This document shows, piece after piece, positions 273 through 13,148 of a DNA stretch of 64,000 nt. A program made the position numbers and the translations under genes. The stretch comes from Owenia fusiformis (taxonomy: Eukaryota > Annelida > Polychaeta > Sabellida > Oweniidae): assembly GCA_903813345.2 (NCBI GenBank), contig CAIIXF020000009.1, positions 28,556,740 to 28,620,739 of the forward strand. Direction: 5' to 3'. Under the pieces are notes generated by a model, which ran no database searches, was not told the DNA's origin, and saw only the letters and a program-made list of their open reading frames with translations. Position 1 is the stretch's first letter. Each line of letters begins with the position of its first letter.

Positions 273-1139
273 ATGGCCACATCATGGTAAGGGCCCAATC
301 ACATGCAAGTAACACTACAACCATAAAGTAGATCAGAGAAATAGTGCAAACCTACACCTCATTTGCATCTTAATTATAATATACAAGTTCAGTAAAATCA
401 TATGCTGCTTTCAATCTTTTTGAGAGAAGAACAAATTCATTCAGTCTACTATATCTAGTATTCAAATGAAACTGACTCCCATGTCAGATATTAATACGCA
501 ATGGTCTAATATGGGCAGGCGTCAGTAATATATCCAAATATGGAAAGGTGTCAGTAATATATCCTAATATGGACAGCCAACGAGTGTTAGTAATATCCTC
601 TTGTAATCCCCTGAACAGTCATCCTGAAAGTACACAAAGTATATATATTTGTTGGTTTTGATGCAATACATGATCAAAGCATTCTCTTGCACTGTTGTTT
701 GTGATCAAATTAAAGTAATTTATAAAAATCTCAGATTTTTATTTATAATATATTAAATCTTTCCATAACGATATAAAATCATGTCTTACAAAAATGCACA
801 TTAAGAGTCCCATGATGTACCAAATAATCAATGGCTAATTTAATACTGATACGAGCATATCCATATAATAACTTAATAGCGTAGAATAACTTAAGTATCA
901 CCCAATACCAAAAGACATGAATATTCTCTGTATCATGCAAATTGTAAGCTGCAATAATTGGATATGACTTCACACATATCTATTATATGGATGATCATAT
1001 TCAATTGAATAGTTATGCATAAATATGATAACACCTGTTGGTCGCTCAATTATGTACCATCCTTAAGACCCCTAATGCAGCTAATGTGCACCTAATGTGC
1101 ACCTAATTAGCACCTAATCTGCATCCCTGATACACCTAC

Positions 1140-4100
1140 CTTTATAAACTGGTCTAGGGACTGATGGTATAGCTTCTGGAACTCTTGCTTTATCTGCACC
1201 ATGTCTACCTCAGAACGGGTAACAGTCACTCTTATAAGAGCCTGGTCATCTGTTCCCAAACCCTACAAGTAATATTTACATGTACTTACATGTATATATC
1301 AAAATCAATATCACATTAATAATGTAGATTGATATAGTCTTGATTGAATAAAATGACAGTGGATTGGATTGGGGGTGTATTGGGGGTTATTTTCCTTGTG
1401 AAAGGTTGTTTCTTTTGCTTGATGTGTTTTGTAACTTCCCCTTTTAACTCTTAGCAGCCTGCCATTGAGTGAACTTGCAAAGTGGCTTTCTTCTGGTGTC
1501 CCCTGATTAAACACCTCTTAAGGATAACAGTTGGGAAATGACGCAGTTAGTTTCCTTGGGGGGCAAGGGATAAATTATGGCTTCATTAGCGAAGAATTTT
1601 AATATTCAAATGAAAACATAACATTTAAAAAATTTTGGAGATGAGGAAAGGGGGTTCAAACAGAAATTAACTTCATTCTTCAATGTCTGTTGTTAATTAG
1701 ACACCATCCCTTAAACACATGCTATTGAAGAATGGCAGGCCACATGTGCAAATGAGAAATATTCCCGACTTCTTACCTTCATTGCTCTGTAGAGTTTAGT
1801 GGCAAAGTAGGCAGGCCCATTGCGGACACATCCAACTATAAACCAAATTGAAAGAAAAATAAATTATTACAATTTAGATAAAAATCAAATAAAAATGATA
1901 AATAACTAAACTAGTATGTCCACTTAAATCCAAGCAAAGTGACTATGACGCATCATATTTAATAATTCTAAAATCAGAAATATTTCAGCCACAAAATAGT
2001 AAGTAATTCTCACAAGAGTTAAATAAAAAAAACACTCAAATAATTTAAAATGAGCGTACATATTCAAACATATATCTTAACTTGTGCCAACTACTGATAT
2101 ACCTTATCCTCTTTAATTTGTAAGAATTAAACAAACCTATTGCAAGCATTCCATTTTCAATATCACCGGAGAATTCTCGCTTTACTGCCGTTTCTATAGG
2201 GTTCTTTGAGATTAGGGCATACTCGTCAAACACACATCTCAGCTGCTCAAAACTTTGAGAGCAGAGGATCATGTTGAAAACTGATTCATCTGTTCCCCAC
2301 CTAGCTTCACCCGCTTCATATAGGCGCTGAAAAGACATTTTCAATGGTCATTACGTAGGAATTTATTAATCAAATGTACCACATACAGCACTTGTAGCTG
2401 TTTTGAGGATTTTATTTTTGAATTGTATGGCTATTTTGGTACGAAGAGGAGGTTTTGTAAACAATGTATTTGGTTGCTGTGGCGACATGATTATTTGGTG
2501 GGTAATCATTTCCATCAAGTGTTTCCAATTCCACTTTCAGAAAAGGGAAAACTCATTAAAAATGTCTGTAAAAAGTTTGACAACCCTTATAGTATTTGCA
2601 ACCCCAGTAGCACAATCCCACATCAACATTAAAGTATCATCCAAAACTTACAGCACTCATTCACCAAGAAACTATATTGGTCGAGCCCATTGACTATGAT
2701 TATCAGGTATAGTCTGTATAATTGACTTACAGGGGGTGAGTAGCATTAATCATAATGGTATTAGGGGGAGGGGGACAACTGAATGAGAAAATAAAGAACG
2801 GATGGGGCTTTGTCAATGTTAATGTAAGTATACACACCTTAGCATCCTGCTTTGCTTTGTTCCTATCAACAGGTTGGTTCTCTTGTCTGCCTGCCTATAA
2901 TGGTAGAAAAGACAACATCTTTACTACATATACAACACACCTCATGTACATAGCCACAAGAAAAAACACAGAATATCATGTAATCAGCTTGTTTAATTTA
3001 ATATGGATTTCTTGGGGTCTGTGTTGGACTGCCATAAAATAGAAGTGAAATAAACAGGTTCATTCAATTCAAAATTTAAAAAAAACAATACAAATAAAAT
3101 GCTTATAGAAAGGAAACAATTGTACAAATGGAATAAAGATGTTAGCATAAATTAGTAGCAGAGATCTATTAATACATTATAATCTGAGACAAGTGTTAAG
3201 TCTTCTAAATTGTTAATGAAATGTTGTGCAAAAAAATATTATAAAAAAGGAAAAGACTCATACGGACTAAAAATTCCCTACAATGAATGATTCATAATTT
3301 CATATGTTCATGGAAGTGGTGATAAAATAAGGTTTTCTTCAAACTCAATATCAATTTGGTTCTAGAATGTTCAGAAGGTTTTCATTTTACAGAAATTGAC
3401 ACGAAATACAGCTATGTTAGTATTAAAACACAATATATCAAAAAGTGACACTGAACACTATCTAATTACTCACAGTCGACAATGCCACCAATAATCTTCT
3501 AAAGTGACCAGAAGTTTCACTGATTAGATCTTTTTCTAAATTTCTCCGAAATACTGAAAACATGAAAAATTTCTCAATTATTTTTCTGATTGCTAGGTGG
3601 AACTTAAGAATGAGTTTTGTGCATGCAAGTGAGTGAACTGTTGCTATGACAACACCGGTTTCATTTCCACAAAGCAGACATCAATGACAACACAGAATGA
3701 ACAGAAAGAGACATTCAGTTGCCATGACCACAGTGGTTGTTATAGCAACTGTTGTTGCTATGGCATTGTTACTCACAGCAGCCATAGAAATCATGAGACG
3801 TTTGAAGTGTCCAGAGTTCTCTGACATCAAATCTTTCTCCATTTCCCGACGGTAATCTGGAAAAAGAATATTACTTGCACAATACAGATCATGGGCAAAA
3901 GCCACACCAAACATCCATGCACCCAGTGCAATAGCAGCAATATAACCAGGTCTTATTGGTTCTCATACTGGAAATGTTTACGAAGTAGTACAAAGGAGGA
4001 ACAATGCAATAATGGAGCGTCTTTGATTCAATTTCTGGGTACGTTTCATGGTTGAAATTTTACAAATGGTACTGACATTGGCAAAAATGGGATTGCTACA

Positions 4101-7100
4101 GAAACAGCACCATATTACACTTATTTTCAGAAAATGTTGGTCTCTAAAAATGACCTAAATAATACTCTGCCAACCATATCAAATATACCCAAACAAACAC
4201 TTACCATGGACACACAATACATACATGTAGTTTAAAAAGATTTATGGATGAGTATTCCTGATATCACATTTACGGCCTCCTAGAGTTCCATGCATGAAGT
4301 CTTCAGTTCCCACCTTTCTATGCATGTTCCTTAAAAACGGAACCTCATTCTCACAACTTGAACATCAGTTCTTTAGTCATGGACCAGTAGAGAAATAAGT
4401 TGGAGAGAGAAGAACTGGTGGTTCACAACTAAAGAACTGATATTCGTGGATAGCGAGGTCTGAACTGAAGACTGCATGAGTGGAAGTCTAGAAGGCCTGA
4501 TTTAGAAATAGCAACTCAATAGAAATCCACAAACAACATACTAGTAAGTATAAAGTGCTGACAGTAGACTGGAACTAGTAAATTGATATTTAGCATTGGT
4601 TTTATAGGGATTTGAGTTGATATATGTTTTTGCCACAAGTCCTTTATGCTCTTTCATCCTCGACTCACTGTGGGCAAGTCCTGCAGCATTTGAAATGTCT
4701 TTTTATACCCTCTTCGTGTCCAATGAGTGGGAATATTTGTATGTACAGTAAAACCTGCCTGAGTGGAACACCTCTGATACCTCTAAAAAGTGCTAGGTGT
4801 TTCACTTAAATGGAGGTTCATTTAACATTAAGTCAGTGATTGGTCCTGGGACTCTGAAAAGTGTTCCACTAACAGAGGTGTTTCACATCAAGAGGTGTTC
4901 CACTTTACAGGTTTCCTTTTATATCATATTGAAATGATATCAAAATAAAAGTCTCAAATCTCAGAATAATTTAAAACATGCAATAAATATCTATCAATTT
5001 TGACACAAGATATTGTTTTGAATACACCTTTTATAATAGCTATGATGCAAATGGCATTGTATTTCTGCAAAATGTATTACGTCCATAACTAAAGCTTATA
5101 TTATCAAGATCCAATATATATCCTTAAATATTTCTCTTATTCTTTTCCCTGTGTCATCATAACATTAATATGATTAATATGAGAATCAGTCGTTCACTTA
5201 CGGACTTTATAGGATTGTTTTATTGCATTGATTTCTGCATTGCTTCTGGTACAAAGGATCTCAATTAGGACTTCCTCATCTGTTCCAATTCCCTACAAAT
5301 AAAATGAGTGAAAAAACCATATACTATGAACTTCAAATGATTTATAATTTTTTACAAGGTTAAGTATTATACCAATATTGAATTCATGTAAATACAATGA
5401 GATGTTTCAGTGTTTTAGAAACAATTTACTTGGTGGAAAATTGCCAGATGATTTCGAAGATGTTATTGTGAAAATGATATTAGGAACTTACAGGCTATTT
5501 ATTTTTCAACATATTTATGTATATATCCATTCATCTTTAAGATGGTGAATAAAATAAAACAGCATAATATAATACATTGTAATGTGGAGGGCCTAGGTCG
5601 AAATTATAACTGGCTCTTTATCACGAAATTAGACATTATACACTTATATAGGTACGTTTTATAAAAAAAGGATTGATCAGATTTTCTCCCTTTACCTTCA
5701 TAGCACGTCTAAGTTCAGAAGCATCATAATCATCTCTCGGCATCATCATCCCAAGGATAACATCCTCCAGTTTACCCCCAAGCTCACTCTTCAACTCTTT
5801 AATCAAGTCCTACAAAAAAAACCAAACAAGATTCTCATTTGGAAAATCTACATGTACATTCATTATTATGGATGCAGTTATAGGGAGTCACAAAATTGTC
5901 AACAAATAAACAAACTATTATATAATAAACCTAGTACATGTATTACATTTTTTTTCTCTATCGTTAATCATGAGTTTAAATCATAATTGTTGAATAATAT
6001 TTATGTTGAAGTTTTTGTTGTTTGACTCACTGACATTTTTGCAGAATTTGCAAACTTTTGCATTAATGTAACGTTGACTGTTCAAAAGTTGAATTCTGTG
6101 CATCTTTCCCATCTCCATGAAACTTTAATATGTGAATATGTCTCCTTTATATATTTCAAGATTCCAGAGTCACTACATTATCATACATTGTCTGGGAGAG
6201 TAATGAGACCTCAACAAGTGATAACACACAGAGACAGAAAGAGTGCAGCTAGCACAGATCAGAGGCTATTTGGTGACATAGAAGGACCACAAGGATATAA
6301 CACTTAACAGCACTTAAGTACATGCTGTTGAAAATGTTAAAGAATCATCAAACAGAGGTTCATGTCAAAGGGAGGGGAACAAAAATTGACATAGAACCTA
6401 GCAAGGAAAAGAAAACATCTAAGTAAACACCAGTCCTGAACAATATATTTTTGTAAAACACAATTCTCACTTATTATCAATTCATGACAATAACGACAAT
6501 AAATCAGATCACCTACCTTTCCATACATTGTCTTGAAAAGTAGTGAGATCTCTTGTCTTTGTTTGTTACTTCTGTGGCCCAGAATATCAATGACAGCCTT
6601 CTCATCAGTTCCTATACCTTTCATGGCTTTACGTAGGATCTTTGCATCATTTTCTGCGCTAAATGGACTGGCTGCCTTAACAGTGCCCTGTGTCTGAAAA
6701 TATTTACCATAACAGGCATTTTGAGAATTTTTATCAATAAATGTAAAAGAGCTATCATGAAATTCAATTTTAACATTAATGCTAGTGTTAATAAATCATT
6801 GAGTTTCCCATTTTCTCTATCTCGACATAATAATGAGGGCCATACATTGTTTGTTTAATTTTAATTTTCTGTTTTTATATTTTTATAAACATAAACTCAA
6901 GACTCTTGCCTCAGGTGATATTGACCTCAATGTATAAATCAATGTTAGGTTTGTTGTTTTCACTATATTGGCAGTACATGTATTAAGTTGACAAAATAAA
7001 CTGAAAAGTGAAAAATATATGCATGACTGTAATTAAACTATAGGTATGAATTGTGTGTATTTCTTAAGTGTTATTAATGGAGGCTGCTGGAAAACAGCTC

Positions 7101-10100
7101 ATTGAATAGCTTACATGAAAACTAATATTAAAATTCAAAATGAAAACTCAATATTAGCCATAATTTAACATGTATTTACCTCCATAATGTGAAATTCTTT
7201 TGCTGACAAATTCAAATATCCAGTGTTCCTCAATCCAATCAAACAACTGTTGAATGCTTGATAAAGTATAATTTCTGATTCCTATTCTAATTTGATTTTA
7301 TGTATTTGCAATCTTTATGATGTCTTCAATGCTGATACACTAACATGGAGTAAACAACTTAGGTCTAATGCAAATATACTTTTCTTCAGTTTTACATTCG
7401 TTTTAATGATGACGAATTAGCTCAACATGTAACCCTTTAAGTGGTATATAATCTAAAACAAAATATCACATGTCATATGATGTTTAAACATCTGAAATTT
7501 GATGCATAATTTCCTTGAACTTATTATTCTTCACTATTAAAATCCTCAATGCACTTAATTGGATTCAAAGGTCAAACTATAAACAAGTATTCATGAGTCA
7601 TCTAAAATTCATAAATAAAAGCTACAGTCTTTCTATTCCCTTTCTCTATTTTACTTGAAATATGTAGCTGTTTGCTGAATGAAAGATGTATATATCCTTT
7701 ATAAAAGTTCCAGTGGTGAATTTGTTGAACAATTTCTAGACCGTAAATTGCTTGGTCTATTTCATTCAACTCATAATAATCTCTACTGAATCTCATAAAT
7801 ATATTACTTTTGTTCTAAATACCAAAATCGATAGATGTTTAATAATCTGTCCAACATGTTTTTCTCAACATTCATAAATGTTTATGACCTTAGAAATATG
7901 TGCATATGGCTGAATAGAGTAAAGTGCAGTGTGACATTGAAATTAAATAGGCATAAATCAAAATCTAAACTTTGAAATGACAGCAAAAGGTTCCTTTAAC
8001 CATTAATAAATGGCTAACTGACTAACTAAGGTAGCATTGGTATAAAGGAGTGTAATGAATTATAATACCAGTAAATGACTACTAAAAAAGAGTCATGGAC
8101 TACAGTAAAACCTCTATATCCGAACACCTCTCTAATCTGAACACCTCTTGATGTGAACACTTTTTAGTCCCACTATTCAAACTGCCATAGATTTCCAGGC
8201 CGTCCAATTGTCCCACAATTTCAATATTGTCACGCATTTGCTGAAAAAATTGAAGTCACGCCCATTTTTTGCCGTGAAAGAATATGTCACGCAAATATGC
8301 ATTTTTTCTGATTATTGAATAATCATAAGAATTATATGTCACCGAATTTTCTTGTTCCCTGAAGGTAGATGTTAAGTCACTCATTTTAGGTGTTCCCAGG
8401 TTGACAGGCCTGGATTTCCATGTTGAAAAAAAAACTTGAAATGTGGCCTCTTATCAATCTGAACACCTTTGGCTGGTCCTTGTGATAGATTAGAAAGTTT
8501 TATACTGTAGTTTCTAGGGTAATTACTAGGGACCAAGGTACAGCACCTCATTCTGATTTACTTCTACTCTATTTTGCTTTCCTGAAAGCCTGCCTCATAT
8601 TAGAAAAACTAGATTTGCCCAAAAAACATAATTTTGTATGTTTCTTTCAAAACTTTTTGTGATTGACCATTGGTGCCCCAAAAAGGTTCAAGTAGGTAAT
8701 ACATACCTTAACTTTTTGAGTTCCACCTATATTCATGTTCTTCATACCAGCAACAACACCTCCTGTCCCCCCTGGGTAACCGGGTCCTTTACTTCCAGGA
8801 GCTCCATACCCTCCTGCCTGTGGGGCTGTTGGGGCAGGAGCTGAGGGATATCCTGGAGTTGGAGTGTTGTAATTTGCCGCAGGGGGAACCCCACCTGCTC
8901 CATACCCAGGCTGGCTGGGGTATCCAGGTTGTGCAGGTGCAGGGGCTGGGTATCCAGGTTGTGAGGCAGCTGGAGTGGGGTATCCGGGTTGTGCTGGGGC
9001 AGGTGCTGGATATCCGGGTTGTGCACATCCCGGAGTGGGGTATCCAGGTTGTGCTGGGGCAGGCGCTGGGTATCCTGGTTGTGAGGCACTGGGTGCAGGA
9101 TATCCAGGTTGTGCTGGAGCAGGATATCCAGGCTGACCTCCTGCTGGTGGGTATCCGGGTTGTCCCACTGGAGGGTAACCTGCCCCACCCCCGGGATAGG
9201 GAGCAGACCCTGGACCACCTACTCCCTGAAATAGATAATTTTAAATAGAACTAGAAAACCAAATCATAATTCATGGTTGATTTTAACCAATTCATGCTTT
9301 TGTGTGATTTTTTGTATATCTTTTACCTAAAGACATTTATTATTGGATTTAGAGCATACTTGCAGCAACCCTTACCTCAAAGCCTAATCCTCCTCCCCCA
9401 GGTTGGGCTGGGTAAGGTAGACCACCACCTCCACTTGGATAGGGGGCACCACCATATCCCCCTGCCCCTGCAGATTCTGGGGTCGGCATAGAAACTCCTC
9501 CCTGTTCATAAAAATATTGCAATAAGGTTGTTTTGAAATGATTTTATAGAAAAAATATCATGGGTTATTATGGTAGGACAATATACAGAAAATATATAAT
9601 TTTGAATTAAAGGAATTCTAGGCGATAAAAACAAAACAACAAAATATTGCTTCTGGGACAAGATCAAACAACTTTTACATATTCTTTACCCTACCTATTT
9701 TGTAATTTAACAATCAGCACTAGTATACCACAGGAAGTTGTATTAAGTCCTTTTTTGGCCCTAACGGAGCCTTTTGCCCTTCCCCACTCTCACAACAGAT
9801 GAATATATGTTCTGAGAGTGGGGAAGGGCAAAAAGCTCTGTTAGGCCCAAAAAGGACTTGATACAATTTCCTGTGAAGTATACATACCATATTTCAGCAG
9901 TTATCAAAAAAATTCATAAAAGATTTTTTGATCGATACAATCATGGATTATAAAACAGGAAGTGTTTTCTCTGAGGTCCGTGTGGAATATTTTAATTATT
10001 TCAAATTTTGCAGTTGATTCGATTTTAAATACTTCTTAATGATCGACAATGCTTCCAATGATTTCTATTTGTAATGTTTTGACTTCACCAGTTCATAAAA

Positions 10101-10611
10101 ACAACATTATCACCATTTCACTCAACTTGAAAATTCACTTCCAGTCTGTCGTAATGCAGATGAGCTGAAAATTGTTGTGAACCCCTCAGTCTAAATATGG
10201 CTTTTCAAGGTTCTTGACAGACGACTTTGAATGGCATGCATGCATAGTTCGAAAATAGAATCATCATAGAAGGTTTTAAACCATGAAATTGACTCTAAGG
10301 CCTGATAAAAAAATGTTTGACCATTTTGTCAGCTCTATGTTACAATATGCCTTTAAGTACACATAAAGAATGTAGTAAAAAGAAAATCATGGATTACAAT
10401 AGTAGTAGACAAATTAAGATCGAATTCAGAGGGACCACCCTAAAACAAGGATAATGGACAAATGTAAGATACCATTGTATGGGACTTTATGATTGTATTA
10501 ACATACCTGAGCAGGGTACCCCCCTGGTTGAGGGTAACCAGGCTGCTGGGCCCCGGGGTAGCCACCTTGGGGAGGGTAGGGTTGACCTCCTCCATATGGA
10601 TTATAGCTCAT
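1140..10611 (-). CDS. Annexin A7/A11-like gene (partial, last exon off-window)
   Basis: Coding exons, 5' to 3' on the minus strand: 10507-10611, 9376-9501, 8707-9225, 6517-6693, 5696-5809, 5202-5292, then 3777-3856 or 3474-3553 (alternatives), 2838-2894, 2137-2326, 1777-1835, 1140-1262. All junctions are GT-AG and phases agree, giving 547 aa before the missing final exon. Residues 1-250 are Pro/Gly/Tyr-rich; the rest is the annexin core. Repeats 1, 2 and 4 show the calcium-loop signatures [15 protein letters not shown] and KGLGTDD; repeat 3 has RWGTDES, as usual for repeat 3. Annexins bind acidic phospholipid membranes in a calcium-dependent way; A7 and A11 also have self-associating N-terminal regions (family knowledge). 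The initiator ATG (10609-10611) directly follows an acceptor AG, so a non-coding 5' exon probably lies upstream. The expected terminal exon with the end of repeat 4 was not found in 1-1139. Orthology to A7 versus A11 is not resolved. Confidence 0.93.
3474..3553 (-). other. Annexin alternative exon 7b
   Basis: This 80-nt exon has the same entry and exit phases as 7a, acceptor ATGTTTTCAG and donor GTGAGT. It encodes an equivalent segment with core [12 protein letters not shown]. By eye it shares 14 of 26 complete codons' residues with 7a, with conservative changes elsewhere and no stop. Joining 7a to 7b would add 160 nt and shift the frame, so one mRNA can use only one of them. Confidence 0.85.
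3777..3856 (-). other. Annexin alternative exon 7a
   Basis: This 80-nt exon is entered in phase 1 and left in phase 0. It encodes the second half of annexin repeat 2, including the [12 protein letters not shown] core; the Glu before Asn-Ser-Gly aligns with the acidic calcium cap residue of other annexins (inference from the family pattern). The acceptor is TTTTTCCAG and the donor GTGAGT. It lies 220 nt upstream of a second version (7b) with the same length and phases. Confidence 0.88.
4745..4915. mobile_element. MITE with TACAGTAAAACCTG-type ends
   Basis: The left end reads ACAGTAAAACCTGCC followed by GTGGAACACCTC; the right end reads GTGTTCCACTTTACAGG, an imperfect inverted repeat. The interior repeats GGTGTTTCAC and TTCCAC motifs. 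Related sequence occurs at 36717-36880, 8103-8515 and 18245-18672. It has no coding capacity and lies in an annexin intron. Confidence 0.6.
8103..8515. mobile_element. MITE of the CAGTAAAACCT family
   Basis: The left end is TACAGTAAAACCTCTATA followed by several GAACACCTC motifs; the right end carries GAACACC and ATACTGTA. The arrangement matches the element at 18245-18672, and it is non-coding. The middle (8160-8400) has a segment rich in GTCACGC motifs that may be a separate insertion. It lies in the annexin intron between exons 3 and 4. Confidence 0.5.
8707..9225 (-). other. Annexin exon 3: Gly-Tyr-Pro repeat region
   Basis: This single 519-nt, phase-0 exon (173 codons) encodes most of the low-complexity N-terminal region. 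The motif QPGYP with small spacers of Ala, Pro and Ser recurs about ten times, followed by a Gly/Pro/Ala stretch. At DNA level the repeats show as a GC-rich imperfect minisatellite, so long open frames in other phases here are shadows. Such regions in annexins A7 and A11 drive self-association (family knowledge). The two upstream exons (10507-10611 and 9376-9501) have the same composition. Confidence 0.9.
9729..9875. mobile_element. Foldback (hairpin) element, arms about 68 bp
   Basis: A near-perfect inverted repeat: the left arm starts CACAGGAAGTTGTATTAAG and the right arm ends with its complement, TACAATTTCCTGTG. Arms include the GC-rich block GCCCTTCCCCACTCTCA and its complement. The loop is only about 12 nt. 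It lies in annexin intron 2 and looks like a short foldback MITE. Confidence 0.75.
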
Positions 10612-11641: not shown

Positions 11642-13148
11642 TAGGCGTGGAGACCCTATCTGTTGCAAGACTTATGCCTGGCACAACCGTCACCATGTTA
11701 TTAAGTGTTTTAAGTTTCGCAAGGATCCTGCCATGACTGTGGTAGTGTTATCATGATAGCCTGGTATAACCGTGACAATGCTATATTAAATTGCATGGCC
11801 TGTCATGACCGTGGTAATGTTAAAGCCTGATATGACCGTCACAGTGCTATACTATATTGCAAGGCCTGACATGACCGTGGTAATATTAAAGCCTGATATG
11901 ACCGTGACAATGGTTGCAAGGCCTGTCATGACCGTGGTAATGTTAAAGCCTGATATGACCGTGACAATGGTTGCAAGGCCTGTCATGACTGTGGTAATGT
12001 TAAAGCACCATATGACCGTGACAATGGTTATATTATTTGAAAAATCAACTTTTTTGACCTTTCAAAAGGTCATCGAAGGTCAAGTAATGGTGTAAAGGTC
12101 AAATCCTAAAACTAATGTCAGATTTGAACTCCTGGCAACTTGTAGATGATTTTAATAAATAATTTGGTCAAATTGAAGCAAGTTGAAAAATAACTTATTT
12201 TTAATGTTTTTTGACGTCAAATATCTCAAAAACGGTAAAAATTTGATGCTGACATATATTGAGCAATATGTAGGGAATGCTTAAATCTAGTAATGATGTA
12301 ATTCATTGCAAGAAATGATCAAGTATAAGGCAAACTTTGAGAAACTTGTCAATCACAAAACATGCCATTGACTTTATACATGAGAAAGTTTCCTGAAAAT
12401 GAGTAAGTCCTACTTTTTGTCAAATTTTATAAGAGTAAACAACAAAAACTGTAATTCCAAGAGCTTTGAAATCTTCAGACATAAGTTTCATATACAGCAA
12501 CTACTTCAAGTTTTTTGAAAGTTCTACTACAACAAAGTATCTAGTATTTACAGAAAATTTGATTTAACAGTTTTAATTTGTGCGGCGATTGTTGATGGAC
12601 GGATGGACCAACGGATGGACAGACAAACAGACGGACCAACAGACAGACGCCTGGTCGATCCCATAGGCTCACTGTGTGAGCCAAAAACACTTCATAACAT
12701 GGCGAGGGTTGTACCTAGACTATATCCTCTAGTCTGAAATTTTTTTGAAATTTGGAATGAAAATATTCAGACTATAGCCCACATATGTTAAAATTTGGGA
12801 TTGAAAATTATTTGTTTACATAGGAAGTGCCATTCAAAATGGCCGACTGGGTAAATTAATTTGCATATTTGTTACTTCCCCTAGCTTTATTTCCATTTGA
12901 CAATATGCTGAGTTACTTTTTATAGCATTTTATTGTACCTTACTACTAAATTGAATCGTATAATGCTTATTTTTGGGAAGTGAAGTTTCCTAAAATTGAT
13001 AATAGTTTGCAGGAAATTTCCTGTTTTTTCCCACAGGAGGGACATAATGCTCAATAGACTGAATTCTCAGGAAATTCAGTCTATTGGATATAGACTAGGG
13101 TTGTACCAGGCATAAGTCTTGCAATGGACAGCATGTGTGGGCGTGGCA
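11642..13148. mobile_element. Composite element with inverted ends
   Basis: The left end contains GTTGCAAGACTTATGCCTGG and the right end its complement (CCAGGCATAAGTCTTGCAA), each with a GGCGTGG outer block. Inside are a minisatellite (about 11790-12035), a GACGGACC-type tetranucleotide tract (about 12595-12650) and AGGCTCACTGTGTGAGCC (12665-12682). The 12085-12280 part recurs almost unchanged at 16040-16235. No transposase reading frame is visible, so it may be a non-autonomous DNA transposon or two overlapping repeats. Confidence 0.5.
11790..12035. repeat. Minisatellite, unit about 57 bp
   Basis: Roughly four units alternate CATGACCGTGGTAATGTTAAAG with GATATGACCGTGACAATGGTT motifs. The open frame across it is a by-product of the repeats. 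Confidence 0.75.

Follow-up and report, generated by a model that had tools for sequence, protein, structure and literature searches.

Mutually exclusive exons are already well described. Clusters of them occur in Dscam, muscle myosin heavy chain, and dynein heavy chain genes (PMC3228551), and exons 9 and 10 of PKM form a mutually exclusive pair (PMC3498831). Among human clusters, exon length was not divisible by three in 377 (60%), and the RNA criterion given for a pair in the same study is that junction reads bridge each exon and no productive read joins both (PMC5740500). In annexin A7, a cassette exon yields tissue-specific isoforms of 47 and 51 kDa that differ in the N-terminal domain (PMC1087847). 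Bombyx annexin IX isoforms arise through an alternative carboxyl-terminal exon, going by a mention and a reference title in PMC3426547. Our literature search, in a collection that covers few subscription papers and no annotated isoforms, found no annexin with a mutually exclusive exon pair in its core among the matches listed, most of them judged by title and the start of the abstract; the word annexin is absent from the main text of PMC3228551, PMC5740500, and PMC3923563. As far as we could find, the annexin core would be a new site for such exons; two isoforms may already be annotated in the genomes of related animals.

Here we describe two neighboring 80-nt exons, 7a and 7b, in an annexin gene of Owenia fusiformis that lies in a 64,000-nt stretch of genomic DNA (the window). 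Very probably they stem from an old tandem duplication and serve as a mutually exclusive pair. Such a pair, which a sequence-only reading of the window had proposed, appears to be the interpretation that the gene structure, the logic of the frame, and the signs of selection favor most. Like the members of known clusters, 7a and 7b are neighboring homologous exons that are similar in length, agree in phase and splice type, and encode one and the same structural element, and their length is likewise not divisible by three (compare PMC5740500). Unlike those clusters, they sit in the annexin core, and the pair is known here from sequence alone. The annexin A7 cassette exon is comparable as alternative splicing of an A7-type annexin, but it is a single N-terminal exon, whereas 7a and 7b are two homologous exons in core repeat 2. 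The likeness to Bombyx annexin IX lies in alternative exons that change the annexin protein sequence; there the choice is, by the title, one of terminal exon, whereas 7a and 7b form an internal pair held by the reading frame.

An A7/A11-like annexin gene with two versions of exon 7

The window holds a complete annexin gene on the minus strand (564 to 10611), in which we placed 13 coding exons. Internal exon borders have AG ahead and GT behind, and the frame from the chosen ATG to a TAG comprises 566 codons whichever exon 7 is used, giving a protein of 566 amino acids via 7a or 7b. Translation of exon 1 (10507 to 10611, the coding part from the chosen ATG), exon 2 (9376 to 9501), and exon 3 (8707 to 9225, with GYP-rich repeats) gives a GYP/PGY-rich N-terminus; a long N-terminus of this kind is a mark of A7/A11 annexins. 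The core consists of four annexin repeats, and Pfam Annexin matches each of them once. It begins with exon 4 (6517 to 6693, first part of repeat 1) and exon 5 (5696 to 5809, 114 nt). Exon 6 (5202 to 5292, 91 nt) encodes the GIGT calcium loop of repeat 2, exits in phase 1, and is the upstream partner common to exons 7a (3777 to 3856) and 7b (3474 to 3553). Their common downstream partner is exon 8 (2838 to 2894, 57 nt), which encodes the linker between repeats 2 and 3. Exon 9 (2137 to 2326, 190 nt) covers repeat 3 and is followed by exon 10 (1777 to 1835, 59 nt), exon 11 (1140 to 1262, 123 nt, repeat 4), and exon 12 with the stop codon (564 to 623). From exon 5 onward the sizes are thus 114, 91, 80, 57, 190, 59, and 123 nt, sizes that agree with those of vertebrate annexin genes, with 190 = 94 + 96. 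An 80-nt exon is thus normal at this place, and this gene has two.

Among the best 60 of 78 PDB matches, the top single-core chain was annexin A7 8w5s (289.5 bits for the whole sequence), followed by annexin XII 1aei (268.7 bits). Only two double-core annexin VI entries in that set exceeded 8w5s in total score, and their best half reached 212.0 bits versus 257.7 bits for the main stretch of 8w5s. No A11 core appeared among the best 60 of 78 matches, so A7 and A11 are not separated; with that limit, the earlier label "A7/A11-like" agrees with both the GYP-rich N-terminus and the best single-core chain.

Several repeats lie in the 5′ part of the gene and beyond it. Within exon 3, the GYP-rich coding sequence forms a 30/60-nt tandem array (8913 to 9123), whose length, at a guess, could vary among individuals. 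Intron 1 contains a long imperfect hairpin (9729 to 9875) with 49-nt arms that are 90% complementary and 4 nt apart; it is extended by 32-nt arms (91%) and resembles a short inverted-repeat element. Upstream of the first coding exon, a further tandem array (11790 to 12029) has a 57-nt unit in about 3 to 4 copies.

Structure and homology of the exon pair

Both 7a and 7b are 80 nt long, enter in phase 1 and exit in phase 0, are flanked by AG and GT, contain no stop codon, and encode 27 residues including the split first codon; the exon bounds are those first proposed. The intron between them is 223 nt (3554 to 3776), and several GTTGCTAT/ATAGCAAC-type palindromic pieces can be seen in it by eye. 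Recomputation returned the same residue at 14 of 26 full codons, the count that had been made by eye. The two exons align with a BLOSUM62 score of 89, which is 68 to 70% of the self score, and with a DNA identity of 43/80. A published predictor of mutually exclusive exons required a score of at least 15% (PMC3228551), taken here as a fraction of the self score; with regard to the sequence criteria in the same paper, 7a and 7b have approximately equal length, matching splice sites, a kept frame, and homology.

In peptide searches of the 498-Mb genome, 7a and 7b found each other (E = 1.7e-4). With the limit relaxed to E = 10, four places matched 7a and five matched 7b: both found the pair itself and two places in an annexin region on C1, and 7b alone found one further weak place on C8. 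A profile of exon 7 built from five outgroup sequences, with neither 7a nor 7b included, gave 53.5 bits for 7b and 47.3 bits for 7a; the third-best 80-nt frame in the window, both strands considered, scored 9.0 bits and had no splice sites. Judged from these searches, the likeness of 7a and 7b is not due to chance. Repeat 2 scored 90.9 bits against Pfam Annexin (cut-off, 25) when joined through 7a and 95.5 bits when joined through 7b. As 31-residue segments alone, 7b passed that cut-off (27.0 bits) and 7a failed it (21.7 bits). When the first 11,000 bases of the window were searched with the core by tblastn, no other core exon turned up in a second copy.

The exons encode the second half of repeat 2 and differ at 13 of 27 residues, the split codon included. 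The claim that the calcium-cap Glu and the SGHF motif are kept was borne out for both; numbering from the first Gly of GIGT puts the Glu at residue 43, which we take to be the calcium-cap position in annexin A5 numbering. By sequence, the type II calcium site residues of repeat 2, namely, the GIGT loop and Glu 43, are present with either exon. In a post hoc count, 7a contains four Met, all at positions occupied by Leu or Ile in 7b, and 7b contains none. At two of these Met positions each of the five outgroup sequences has Leu, and an Asn in 7a replaces a Thr that is constant in those five. Exon 7a may repack the second half of repeat 2 and leave calcium binding in place.

Age, selection, and ancestry of the two exons

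Silent sites between 7a and 7b are saturated (NG86 pS = 1.02, or 16.8 changes at 16.5 silent sites), and pN is 0.30. The resulting pN/pS of 0.29 had a bootstrap range of 0.16 to 0.50, with 0 of 2,000 replicates at or above 1. In neutral simulations that placed the same 37 differences at random (10,000 runs from each exon), 18% of the simulated exons derived from 7b and 21% of those derived from 7a were still open, and the observed protein identity was reached in 0 of 10,000 runs from either exon. Flanking intron identity was 14/40 and 15/40, versus 43/80 within the exons. Saturated silent sites, low pN, the simulations, and the unlike flanks together indicate that the duplication is old and that both copies have long served as coding sequence. 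The unlike flanks also argue against a recent copy and against an assembly duplicate. That two haplotypes were assembled in tandem is, accordingly, scarcely credible, given the low DNA identity of the exons and an inter-exon intron that matched only itself in a DNA search of the genome.

A Pfam search of the genome for annexins returned 26 matches in five regions, 4 of them in this gene; the other 22 were examined in seven excised stretches (L001 to L007). The nearest relatives are a pair of A7-like annexin genes in this genome, both located on C1 (L001 and L002); their exon 7 segment aligns gap-free with that of the window gene. Each has one exon 7, and no second one was found in the excised stretches. 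In both paralogs exon 7 is joined to exon 8 without an intron, whereas the window gene has one; the intronless joins lie at L001 2476 to 2616 and L002 8787 to 9110, and in one paralog exon 9 is joined as well. About 7 kb between L001 and L002, taken as inside the first gene, and parts of the C8 cluster fall outside the excised stretches, and the annexins of L003 to L007 have diverged too far for an exon 7 to be assigned with the profile, so the absence of an exon 7 duplicate elsewhere in the genome rests on the peptide searches. A peptide query with exon 9 gave 2 pattern matches in virus contigs and 65 in prokaryote contigs, none of them confirmed, as expected.

Compared with the two C1 paralogs, 7a is identical at 11 and 13 of 26 residues and 7b at 14 and 16; 7a has five exclusive residues and 7b two; and pN/pS is 0.64 and 0.42 for 7a versus 0.29 and 0.30 for 7b. 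Identity to annexin A7 is 13 of 26 for 7a and 16 of 26 for 7b. For annexin VI, the counts are 8 (7a) and 13 (7b) against repeat 2 and 13 for each exon against the repeat in the second half. From these comparisons 7b looks like the ancestral version, and 7a looks derived or less constrained.

This asymmetry is also what would be expected if 7a were a relic, that is, a duplicated exon once used and now skipped, with 7b as the sole exon in real messages. Beyond its greater divergence and higher pN/pS values, 7a scores lower than 7b on the outgroup profile, falls under the Pfam cut-off when taken alone, and has a low-scoring acceptor. Since the pair pN/pS averages over time, a recent loss of 7a use would go unseen. 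Yet 7a retains an open frame, the exact length, and intact AG/GT, and it shows strong protein constraint across saturated silent change, when about four-fifths of neutral simulations close the frame and none from either exon holds the protein identity. We regard the relic as improbable and a mutually exclusive pair, with both 7a and 7b presumably used in RNA, as the reading to which these data point.

Reading frame and the fate of exon combinations

An exon of 80 nt is not divisible by three, and the frame therefore accommodates one exon 7 per message. The sequence-only reading held that including both exons adds 160 nt and breaks the frame. The frame break stands; the 160 nt applies only relative to a message with neither exon, and relative to a single-exon form the addition is 80 nt. 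With 7a and 7b together, a stop follows after 409 residues, at the sixth codon past the joint and 494 nt before the last junction. With exon 7 skipped, translation ends after 386 residues; the stop then lies nine full residues beyond the split codon of exon 6 and 403 nt ahead of the last junction. Under the usual rule, such early stops make a message a target of nonsense-mediated decay (NMD), and both the double-inclusion and the skipping messages are predicted NMD targets.

An early stop so close to the 7a-7b joint would also suit a role of 7a mainly as a poison exon, which, when joined to 7b, would lower the amount of annexin. A poison exon needs no annexin sequence, yet 7a reaches its 47.3 bits on a profile made without it, and the pair pN/pS is well below 1; we consider this role very improbable. 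If 7a and 7b are instead mutually exclusive, exon 6 would be joined to either 7a or 7b, followed by exon 8, to yield two full-length annexins, and wrong exon combinations would presumably be removed by NMD.

Possible basis of the choice between exons

Several explanations of exclusion were considered. Steric exclusion, in which the 7a donor would be too near the 7b branch point, is unlikely because the intron is 223 nt long, with 163 nt from the donor to its last 60 nt. A conflict between U2 and U12 sites is not indicated, as all relevant sites are GT-AG. RNA folding gave a z score of -2.10 for the 383-nt stretch (2 of 100 shuffles as good) and -1.34 for a 227-nt intron part (22 of 200). When intron-intron duplexes were compared with 60 shuffles, intron 6 with the 7a-7b intron beat 60, the 7a-7b intron with the 7b-8 intron beat 59, and intron 6 with the 7b-8 intron beat 30; these duplexes are long and gapped and the shuffles were mononucleotide, without dinucleotide control, and nothing is drawn from them.

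Splice sites were scored with a small position weight matrix from 10 sites of this gene. The donors of 7a and 7b (2.7 and 4.1) and that of exon 6 (1.8) are the three lowest of 12, and both exon 7 donors fall below 9 of the 10 other donors. The 7a acceptor (-2.1) is the second lowest of 12, with 1 of 10 others lower. Weak splice sites of this kind fit regulated exons and would also fit an exon that is decaying or weakening.

Eight sets of splicing-factor motifs, two of them overlapping, were counted. The introns flanking 7a (1,568 nt) contain 4 copies of TGCATG, one of them at position 150 of the 7a-7b intron, versus 3 copies in the remaining 6,699 nt (Fisher P = 0.028, uncorrected, one of eight sets). 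For the QKI-type motif ACTAAY, the 579 nt after 7b contain 2 copies, the 1,568 nt around 7a none, and the remaining 6,120 nt one. The RBFOX-type sites close to 7a offer a weak hint that splicing factors make the choice, and the QKI-type sites near 7b may be taken as a lead only. On the proposed mechanism, splicing factors would determine which exon is joined.

Implications for annexin diversity

Because the reading frame allows one exon 7 per message, the animal can probably make two versions of this annexin, a membrane protein that depends on calcium, from one gene. The residue differences suggest that the version with 7a would have a repacked repeat 2, with altered calcium or membrane affinity or a different choice of partner and no loss of calcium binding, and the exon switch may in this way alter membrane or partner binding. 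On a bolder account, which we hold to be less likely than not, mutually exclusive exons would switch the folded calcium-binding core of this annexin, and it would be the first annexin of that kind to be described. The tissue, perhaps acting via the RBFOX-type motifs around 7a, would decide whether repeat 2 has a Leu-rich or a Met-rich second half, and the two membrane-binding proteins, differing in calcium or partner preference, would have been kept for a very long time.

Gene duplication and differences among N-termini are mostly credited for annexin diversity, and the core is regarded as invariant. If both exons are used, core versions that differ at 13 residues with the calcium ligands kept would amount to a natural experiment, one that would probe the role of the core residues around the calcium site in membrane and partner binding.
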